Assembly: GCA_945860265.1 (NCBI GenBank)
Contig: CAMAQF010000004.1
Coordinates: forward strand, 1-64,000
DNA length: 64,000 bases
Origin: Emticicia agri
Lineage (GTDB): Bacteria > Bacteroidota > Bacteroidia > Cytophagales > Spirosomataceae
Direction of reading: 5' to 3'
A program made the position numbers and the translations under genes. Positions 60,600-63,421 of the stretch are shown here, piece by piece (within the stretch, counting starts at the first letter, position 1; every line of letters begins with the position of its first letter). The notes beneath the pieces are model-generated. The model ran no database searches, was not told where the DNA came from, and saw only the letters and a program-made list of their open reading frames with translations.

Positions 60600-60935
60600 T
60601 CATACTTGAGTAAATATTTATAGGTGCTTTGAAAGTTAATGCCTTCATGTATTCTCCCAAAATTTTAAAAACTTCTAAACTCCTCCAATGTTTTTCGAGC
60701 TTCAGTCAAATCTTTAAACTTAAATCTCTGACGTATGAAGCTTTCCATGATTGAATGATAGGCTTCAATGTGTGCATCTTGCTGGGGTGTCGCAGGTTTT
60801 GTAAATTCTTGTTTGACATTTTTGCCTCAAAAATATTCTTGGACGTCGGTTCCTATTTAGCGGTATGCCACCGCCGCGGTGGCTGCCATTGTCGCTTCTA
60901 ACACAGATTCCTTTAGGTAAATCATAGCTTTCAAA
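60600..60935 (-). pseudogene. IS3-family (IS150-type) OrfB transposase remnant
   Basis: Minus-strand reading across frames: YDLPKGICVRSDNGS ... VQEYF*GKNVKQEFTKPATPQQDAHIEAYHSIMESFIRQRFKFKDLTEARKTLEEFRSF*NFGRIHEGINFQSTYKYLLKYD; rve C-terminal motifs with stops and a frame change. Confidence 0.8.
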
Positions 60936-61130
60936 AAGGGTATCAAATAATCAAATGACATCTTAATTTTTGATTGTAAAAGCACAATATTGTAATGCAA
61001 CTGGCAAAAAAATGAGCAAGGGTTTTCATAAATATCAAAAATCTTATCAACATGATTTACTTCATTGCTGGTACACTCAAATTTAATTACCCACTCTTTT
61101 TAACATAGACCCAAGAATCATTTTCTATCG

Positions 61131-61357: not shown

Positions 61358-61405
61358 AACTGATTTTTATGAAGTATTTTTTGTTTAAGTCGAACAACAA
61401 AGTTT

Positions 61406-61592
61406 AACCCTTGCAGGGTTATCGAGCCTATTTATTTTTATTCCGTAGGTTTCACCTACGGCTATTCATGTTCAAGCCCTTCGGACTTTGGTGGGAAAAA
61501 ATTAAGCAAGCCTGCAAGGCTTAAACCTAAATAACCACGAGTGCAACTCGTGGAAAGAAAAACGGAGAAAAATTTCAACCCTGCAAGGGTTG
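61406..61592. repeat. Cluster of short palindromes with 3-nt loops (REP-like)
   Basis: AACCCT-TGC-AGGGTT (61406-61420), CCGTAGGT-TTC-ACCTACGG (61443-61461), AAGCCC-TTC-GGACTT (61474-61488, one mismatched pair), AAGCCT-GCA-AGGCTT (61508-61522), CCACGAGT-GCA-ACTCGTGG (61535-61553), CAACCCT-GCA-AGGGTTG (61576-61592). Confidence 0.85.
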
Positions 61593-61705
61593 AACAATCA
61601 AAGTTTCTAATTTACAAAAGTACTTTTTCGTACTAAAAGAAAAGATTGAAATTTGAAAATAAATATTATTTCTACTATCTTCACATCATAAATTATTATA
61701 AAATC

Positions 61706-61867
61706 ATGACAATTATTCTCAAAAAGGGTCAACATTTAGAAGAAATATTGCCTAAAAGCACTTCAAAGGTTAGTAAAAGACTCAATGCTAAGAAATATGT
61801 TGGGGTATTAAAATTAAAAGAAGACCCATTAGAAATTCAAAAAAGAATGCGTGATGAATGGGAGTAA
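61706..61867 (+). CDS. Small antitoxin-like protein upstream of PIN-domain toxin
   Basis: MTIILKKGQHLEEILPKSTSKVSKRLNAKKYVGVLKLKEDPLEIQKRMRDEWE; stop overlaps the PIN gene start. Confidence 0.7.
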   Translation: MTIILKKGQHLEEILPKSTSKVSKRLNAKKYVGVLKLKEDPLEIQKRMRDEWE

Positions 61868-62224
61868 AATATTAATCGACACCAATATTGCTCTTTATTT
61901 ATTTAATGGTGACGAAGATTTAGCCGCAGAACTTCAAGATAAAGAAGCCTACGTTTCTTTTATTAATGAACTTGAATTATTGGGGTACAAAGGAATAAAA
62001 CCCCATGAAGTGAATTGGATGGAATTATTTTTATAGGAATGTTCTATCATGGATTTTAACCAAGGAATCAAAGATATTGCCATTGATTTACGTCGAAACT
62101 ACAAACTGAAATTACCTGATGCAATTATTGCGGCTACTGCTATTTTTCTGGGTATTCCATTAATTTCCGCAGATGGTCATTTGATAAAATTGAAGATTTG
62201 GTATTTATTAAATACCAGCCCTAA
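61851..62224 (+). pseudogene. PIN-domain (VapC-like) toxin, disrupted
   Basis: SKILIDTNIALYLFNGDEDLAAELQDKEAYVSFINELELLGYKGI...MELFL*ECSIMDFNQGIKDIAIDLRRNYKLKLPDAIIAATAIFLGIPLISAD: in-frame TAG at 62034-62036, then apparent -1 shift near 62181 after which the other frame gives FDKIEDLVFIKYQP stop. Confidence 0.8.
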
Positions 62225-62271
62225 GATGGCATAATACTAGAATTTATGACGCATTTCGTTACACATTTCGT

Positions 62272-63421
62272 TCAATTCCAAGCCCTTAAATTTTCCACCA
62301 CTTTCTGCACAGCCGCTACCACGGAGGATACTTCATCAGTCGTATTGAATCGCCCAAAACTAAAACGAATACACGAAAATGCTTCGGTTTCGGTCATGCC
62401 CAAAGCCATCAACACATGAGAAGGCTCAACCGATGCCGAAGTACAAGCCGAACCATTTGAAACCGCAATATCATGCAAACCCATAATCAAAGCATCTGAA
62501 TCACAACCTTCAAATTTGATATTGGTCATGTTATACAAACGATTTTCGACATTGCCATTTACTTCAGTATTCGGAATTTCGAGCAAAGCCTTTTCTAAAT
62601 CATCTTTAAATGCTCTAATTCTTTTGGTTTCGGCTTTCATTTTTTTCTGACAGAGTTCGGCTGCGTGTCCCATGCCTACAATTCCCGCCACATCGAGCGT
62701 TCCCGAACGACGACTTCCTTCGTATCCGCCTCCGTGAAGTAGAGCTTCGAGTTTGATGCGTTTTTGTCAGCGTTGCCTTACAAACAAAGCCTAACACCTT
62801 TTGGGTCATAAAATTTATGTGCCGACATCGCCATTAAATCAATATCGAATTCATCAACTTTTAAATCTAATTTACCAACTGCCTGCGTTCCATCCTTCCT
62901 AAAAATTGCACCTACTTCGTGCATCAATTTTGCCAATTCTTCAATTGGCTGAATCACCCCTAATTAATTATTGCCTAGCATCACCGAAACCAATATTGTA
63001 TCGGATTGATTGCCGCTTTTAAAACTTAAATATCAACCAAACCATCTTTTTTTACAGGAAGAAAAGAGATTTCAAAGCCTTTAGTTTCGAGGTATTTACA
63101 GACATCCAGTACGGCAGAATGTTCAGTCTGAAGTGTAATAATATGTTTGCCTTTGTTTGAATAATTTTCGGCTATTCCCTTGATAGCCAAGTTAATAGCC
63201 TCAGTTGCACCCGATGTAAAAACGATTTCGTGTATTTCTGTACCAATCAAATCAGCCATTTGTTGACGAGCATTTTTAACAGCCTCGCTTGCACTAAGTC
63301 CAAATGCGTGAGTTGAGCTTGCATTTGCAAAATTATCGGTCAAGAATGGCAGCATTATTTCCAAAACTTCTGGATCGATTTTGGTTGTTGCATTATTATC
63401 GAGATAAATCATAAGTTTCAA
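62272..63421 (-). pseudogene. NifS/IscS-type cysteine desulfurase, multiply disrupted
   Basis: MIYLDNNATTKIDPEVLEIMLPFLTDNFANASSTHAFG ... GATEAINLAIKG ... GLVDI*VLKAAINP ... LVSVMLGNN*LGVIQPIEELAKLMHEVGAIFRKDGTQAVGKLDLKVDEFDIDLMAMSAHKFYDPKGV ... [49 protein letters not shown] ... NGSACTSASVEPSHVL. Confidence 0.9.

Follow-up and report, generated by a model that had tools for sequence, protein, structure and literature searches.

A mirror-ordered hairpin cluster of Emticicia agri, probably an orphan pair of terminal units from a Bacteroidota IS200-like element family

Introduction

The window analyzed here, a stretch of 64,000 nucleotides of Emticicia agri DNA, holds a compact cluster of six short hairpins that share one geometry and differ in stem sequence. 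What kind of element is built in this way, and which enzyme, if any, does it belong to? A preliminary description, made from the letters alone, treated the hairpins as six independent palindromes of a REP/BIME-like nature. We argue, at a probability of roughly 0.7, that two orphaned terminal units make up the cluster and that they belong to IS200-like HuH/Y1 elements, a family of the Bacteroidota, the cluster being REP-like in kind.

Results

Anatomy of the cluster

Rather than six independent palindromes, the cluster has two hairpins of each of three types, arranged in the mirror order A-B-C and then C'-B'-A' (Table 1). The preliminary description had placed six hairpins of the same design at 61406-61592. 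The location and the 3-nt loops stand, but only five of the six hairpins in these 190 bp are perfect, the third (C) having a single mismatch, and the stems, given as 6-8 bp, range from 6 to 9 bp. Its observations that the first and last hairpins are reverse complements and that the two ends face each other were borne out: A and A' share the core stem AACCCT, and half-unit A-B-C on the plus strand opposes the inverse half-unit C'-B'-A' on the minus strand.

Table 1. Positions of the hairpins, linkers, half-units, and flanking repeats in the window
Feature	Position	Strand	Basis
Flanking direct repeat, left copy, GAACAACAAAGTTT	61392..61405	+	Sequence; like the G074 spacer
Half-unit A-B-C	61403..61492	+	Covariance model R1 (this half-unit is one of the 36 sequences that built it), full length, 87.7 bits, E 1.3e-13
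Hairpin A, TAACCCT-TGC-AGGGTTA	61405..61421	+	Sequence
Hairpin B, CCGTAGGT-TTC-ACCTACGG	61443..61461	+	Sequence
Linker CTATTCATGTTC, conserved, unpaired, joining B to C	61462..61473	+	Sequence; conserved across loci
Hairpin C, AAGCCC-TTC-GGaCTT, single C/A mismatch	61474..61488	+	Sequence and covariance model
Inverted half-unit, C'-B'-A' on the + strand	61504..61594	-	Covariance model R1 (this half-unit was left out of model building), full length, 80.9 bits, E 2e-12
Hairpin C', AAGCCT-GCA-AGGCTT	61508..61522	-	Sequence
Linker between C' and B', TTATTTAGGTTT as read on the - strand	61523..61534	-	Sequence
Hairpin B', CCACGAGT-GCA-ACTCGTGG, stem unlike B	61535..61553	-	Sequence
Hairpin A', TTCAACCCT-GCA-AGGGTTGAA	61574..61594	-	Sequence
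Flanking direct repeat, right copy, GAACAATCAAAGTTT	61592..61606	+	Sequence; like the G074 spacer

The cluster is real and far from chance. Stems of 6 bp or more that have a 3-nt loop and three or more G/C number 11 in the window, 5 of them inside 190 bp, whereas 60 simulated windows, drawn from a first-order Markov null with the dinucleotide composition of the 64 kb, gave a mean of 4.5 such stems and a maximum of 2 per 190 bp; the comparison with random expectation proposed in the preliminary description thus comes out in favor of the cluster. Two neighboring features lie to its left: a perfect G+C-rich hairpin, GCCACCG-CCG-CGGTGGC, ~500 bp away (60867-60883), and, just beside the array, ~130 bp (60994-61124) of another small repeat family, 92% identical to copies at C73:22098-22228 and C35:238-356.

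A unit defined by order, spacing, and linker

Genome-wide exact searches found the A stem nowhere outside its two window sites and the B hairpin only once, and we rejected exact palindrome matching as a family test; its matches are near-unique and uninformative, as the stems vary. The preliminary description had named uniqueness of each palindrome in the genome as a refuting result, a criterion that would mislead: when shape and linker are modeled together, about six half-units are recovered from this genome. A search with the YTATTCAnnTT-type linker, allowing 2 mismatches, performed no better in the window's genome than its reversed control, and for this reason the covariance model was used there.

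The unit consists of hairpins A and B, the linker YTATTCAnnTT, and hairpin C, and its order, spacing, 3-nt loops, and linker are conserved across the Bacteroidota, where relatives carry arrays in the same order with other stems. A pattern that combined the linker with a portion of hairpin C, and that took in only the last two bases of hairpin B, had over 117 matching stretches among GTDB genomes; every title listed is from the Bacteroidota, and the matches listed include Bacteroidales, Cytophagales, Chitinophagales, Saprospirales, and others. At loci devoid of hairpin B, CTATTC is retained 5' of hairpin C. A REP reading predicts a GTAG/GTGG foot, but the conserved single-stranded motif is YTATTCA, and GTAG, which falls inside one stem-B variant in 7 of the 126 linker matches listed, is not conserved. 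None of the units matched an Rfam family at gathering score, the best matches falling far below it, and we found no description of Bacteroidota hairpins of the A-B-C kind in open-license full texts of the literature. Units that have no stem sequence in common nevertheless form one family in the Bacteroidota, one that similarity searches tend to miss or scatter.

Linkage to one clade of Y1 transposases

At locus L019 of genome G094, two arrays bracket a 148-aa gene (L019:1010-1453) that matches Y1_Tnp. We delimited clade I as the genes with ~49% identity or more to this protein, together with one at 46%; the clade is monophyletic (support, 100/99), and its protein, besides matching Y1_Tnp, is distantly similar to IS200/IS605 transposases of solved structure, that of ISHp608 among them. 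Units bracket the genes as C'-B'-A'-tnpA-A-B-C, a layout that persists when all of the stems differ. Within the window's family, a unit scoring at least 33 bits with the covariance model lies within 150 bp of tnpA at 14 of 21 clade I genes versus 0 of 39 other Y1 genes (P = 7e-9), all loci having been fetched by protein or Pfam searches and not by hairpins, with the exception of the query gene, which came from an array locus. A phylum-wide hold-out of 198 genomes placed a unit within ~100 bp of 10/10 clade I genes. The same linkage is visible at the level of whole genomes: the survey covered 151 members of the family, with units in 15 of the 21 genomes that carry clade I tnpA versus 15 of the 130 that do not (P = 2e-8); half of the unit-bearing genomes lack the gene. 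For 5 of the 21 clade I genes, units were absent at every threshold tested; two of these five contain internal stop codons.

Clade I proteins are ~148 aa long and bear the motifs DH[IVL]H, WQ, and Y---Q--HH. As far as motifs tell, the hairpin-bearing clade is a subset of TnpAY1 subclass 1.2, a signature of which, Y---Q--HH, is also carried by Y1 genes without A-B-C units. The preliminary description, which had likened the cluster to REP/BIME elements and suggested a test for association with a RAYT-like gene, therefore had the REP-like kind and the Y1 link right and the family wrong: the clade bracketed by units is of the class 1 type, with Y---Q--HH, and not a class 2 RAYT, with Y---NP. Several other Y1 genes have hairpins of their own design. 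One of them (L246 in G065) has on both sides perfect hairpins of 27-28 bp with the loop TTAA, ending in GAGGGGT, an end structure unlike that of clade I.

An orphan copy in the window's genome

That no transposase is encoded alongside the cluster, as the preliminary description held, was confirmed by a profile search that returned zero Y1_Tnp matches at C4:1-64000. Clade I tnpA was not found in the rest of this genome either (assembly 90% complete; best match, 43% identity). The half-units recovered by the covariance model are the window pair, a second pair at C16:27602-27806, a single copy at C1:37792-37881, and one more. We rejected the genome's other Y1 genes as the cognate, as they have no adjacent unit, only a weak match ~250-300 bp from one of them (L003). 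Also rejected was a 218-aa Y1 gene on contig C32, which is flanked by different hairpins of its own. This gene (L008, G000:C32:19864-20118 plus flanks) sits among three GACAGGTT-NNN-AACCTGTC hairpins with loops TTC, GAA, and TGC, a separate gene-hairpin pairing with the same geometry.

The window locus can be recognized by its flanks in two congeners: G124 has a single half-unit there, compared with the two here, and G074 has five and a fragment. Its neighboring genes differ between congeners. The window copy is flanked by a direct repeat of 14-15 bases, GAACAA-CAAAGTTT, which resembles the spacer of the tandem copies at the G074 locus; unequal recombination can therefore explain the change in copy number. 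To the right of the array (61706-62234, plus strand) lies a VapBC-like pair, with 86% similar DNA in G124, formed by a small upstream ORF without a Pfam match and a PIN-domain gene interrupted near 62034-62036 by an in-frame stop, with the two halves of the domain at 61851-62033 and 62052-62231. Beyond it, at 62272-63421 on the minus strand, a NifS-like class-V aminotransferase is split into two ORFs (profile positions 256-370 and 1-128) and is apparently broken; G074 lacks ~700 bp of this gene.

Dispersed copies inside elements with terminal inverted repeats

Several genomes carry the unit within terminal inverted repeats (TIRs) that are accompanied by target duplications, features that are foreign to REPs and that depart from the REP reading of the preliminary description. 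They raise a rival explanation: ordinary DDE transposases would move MITEs that carry the core as cargo, the Y1 gene would likewise ride along as a passenger, and the cluster in the window would be what decay has left of such a MITE. One case for it is genome G028, where at least 28 near-identical copies of C'-B'-A-B-C lie between TIRs CAGCAATTTCTTTTTTGGC in elements of ~195 bp (L254-L273) with a target duplication of exactly 9 bp (at least 8 of 9 bases matching in 6 of 12, none in mismatched pairs). Copies in Bacteroidales have the TIR CAATGTCRTTWAGTTAAG and 10-bp duplications, and this TIR family also carries unrelated hairpin cargo; further, different TIRs surround the unit in G088 and in Prolixibacteraceae. 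The very variety of these ends weighs against the MITE-cargo explanation, since at least three to four unrelated TIRs around the same hairpin core leave no single DDE family to account for it. Moreover, none of the seven clade I tnpA loci examined has a clear TIR, the inverted repeat at the window flanks is at chance level (score, 7; chance median, 6; 95%, 10), and the explanation leaves the specificity of the core for one Y1 clade without a cause. We consider it unlikely.

How the TIR-borne copies moved is a separate matter. No Y1 enzyme is known to make target duplications, and for that reason DDE transposases are the most likely agents of movement for the dispersed copies. Pattern searches revealed no full-length IS with the CAGCAATTTCTTTTTTGGC or CAATGTCRTTWAGTTAAG TIRs, and the G028 MAG contains neither clade I tnpA nor a visible full-length partner IS. 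The two modes may be related through MITEs that captured a Y1 end or through a Y1 gene acquired later by what began as MITE cargo. Tentatively, A-B-C could be a dual-use module, a HuH/Y1 recognition end captured repeatedly by unrelated DDE-type MITEs, the chimeras of which would move by Y1 single-strand chemistry or by IS cut-and-paste; we find this conceivable, if somewhat doubtful. Another MITE family, in G152 (L324, L336, and L347), has the TIR CAATGTCGTTTAGTTAAG and carries a different hairpin array, with stems GCCTCAGTC, GCCTTGC, and GCCTGTC and loops AGA/TCT; its members shrink to a full palindrome of 75 bp.

Compensated changes in the stems

The preliminary description held that shape, and not sequence, is the conserved trait, and the compensating changes by which stems vary between copies bear it out. 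Among the 126 linker matches listed, 89 show at least 7 of 8 Watson-Crick pairs in the hairpin B register, with 50 stem sequences, whereas sliding the register by 1-3 bases leaves only 0-2 matches with such pairing. An alignment of 36 half-units contains 144 pair cells changed on both sides, compared with 39 +/- 5 in shuffles; these half-units were picked for paired stems, which biases their percentage of pairing but does not explain the count of compensated changes. The covariation score of the same alignment, 0.51 versus 0.16, is destroyed by sliding the register. Near-perfect B stems include 57 non-Watson-Crick cells, 22 of them A.C and 14 G.T. Because G.T is not preferred over A.C, there is no sign of the G.U tolerance expected of RNA, nor any indication that on this strand the stem functions as RNA; the constraint on stem B looks as if it acts on DNA.

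Covariation of this sort could also arise without functional meaning if template switching at replication forks perfected imperfect palindromes. The orthologous C16 locus, common to four congeners, shows just the product expected of such templated correction: its B stem differs with compensation at multiple sites, two congeners having CCGTGGGT-TTC-ACCCACGG and another having CCGTAGGC-GTT-GCCTACGG. Template switching, however, leaves the unpaired linker, the order and spacing of A-B-C, and the link to tnpA unexplained, and as a full account of the family it strikes us as improbable. Least credible of all is a role in gene expression that would preserve the hairpins as intrinsic terminators or as RNA elements of another kind, for although a consensus scan found four terminator-like sites on the minus strand versus 0.3 expected in shuffles, and G028 copies lie mostly outside long open frames, none of the sites reads in the plus direction of the next gene, termination needs neither a fixed order, a linker, nor inverted pairing, G.T is not favored in the stems, no Rfam family exceeds threshold, and the link to one transposase clade is tight.

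Discussion

Conserved shape, a constant unit order, and linkage to a single transposase clade carry the reading of the window cluster as an orphan pair of terminal units. Against it stand the genomes that have units and no clade I gene, this one and G028 included, the clade I genes without a unit, and the dispersed copies whose target duplications point to another enzyme. By analogy with characterized relatives, we infer that the clade I enzyme recognizes, cleaves, and moves such units in trans. Like the enzymes of IS200/IS605 and REP elements, the transposase would recognize the hairpins once single-stranded DNA has folded into them, and the TATTCA that precedes hairpin C at its 5' foot would be a candidate guide or cleavage sequence. 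The linker is the best candidate for this role because of its persistence beside hairpin C where hairpin B is missing and because of the analogy with IS608 and REP elements. Gene-less units could then be moved or amplified in trans, much like REP/BIME elements, and the window copy would by now be inert, its copy number shifting through recombination between its repeats.

The G028 and Bacteroidales MAG copies resemble MITEs in their length (~185-275 bp), TIRs, fixed target duplications, and want of genes; unlike a MITE family, the core is common to MITEs of unrelated TIRs and also surrounds tnpA without a clear TIR, and the window copy has no TIR above chance. TIRYT elements, in their summarized form (PMC3733652, as summarized in PMC6006769), likewise link Y1 genes to terminal inverted repeats; they belong mostly to subclass 2.1, with GGGG[AT][CG]A[CG] repeats, and in that summary correspond neither to clade I nor to its sequence. 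REP/BIME/REPIN elements with their RAYT (TnpAREP) enzymes share with our units the inverted pairs of extragenic palindromic units, several per genome, dispersed without genes and tied to one Y1 clade. The differences are that the cognate here is of class 1 (Y---Q--HH), whereas RAYTs are of class 2 (Y---NP), and that a 90-nt three-hairpin unit without a conserved GTAG/GTGG foot takes the place of the REP.

There are also the IS200/IS605 elements (IS608 and ISDra2), which the tnpA-bearing relatives match in their Y1 HuH gene, in the subterminal hairpins at both ends, and in a protein sequence that matches TnpA of solved structure. Here, in contrast, each end has three hairpins in mirror symmetry with stems that are free to change, dispersed copies in some genomes have TIRs and target duplications, and the window copy has no Y1 HuH transposase gene inside, although its relatives do. 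On the protein side, the comparison is with TnpAY1 subclass 1.2, described from Cyanobacteria and Bacteroidetes with Y---Q--HH, WQ, and a length of ~148 aa (Quentin et al. 2018, PMC6006769). Clade I proteins agree with it in motifs (DH[IVL]H included), length, and Bacteroidetes host. The subclass, however, is "generally without typical terminal IS200 secondary structure features" and does not share IS properties (PMC6006769), whereas clade I has a three-hairpin unit on both sides. These widespread, supposedly structureless HuH enzymes thereby gain a concrete, testable candidate for a DNA substrate, in which YTATTCA is a candidate guide motif and the natural variety of the stems amounts to a mutational scan.
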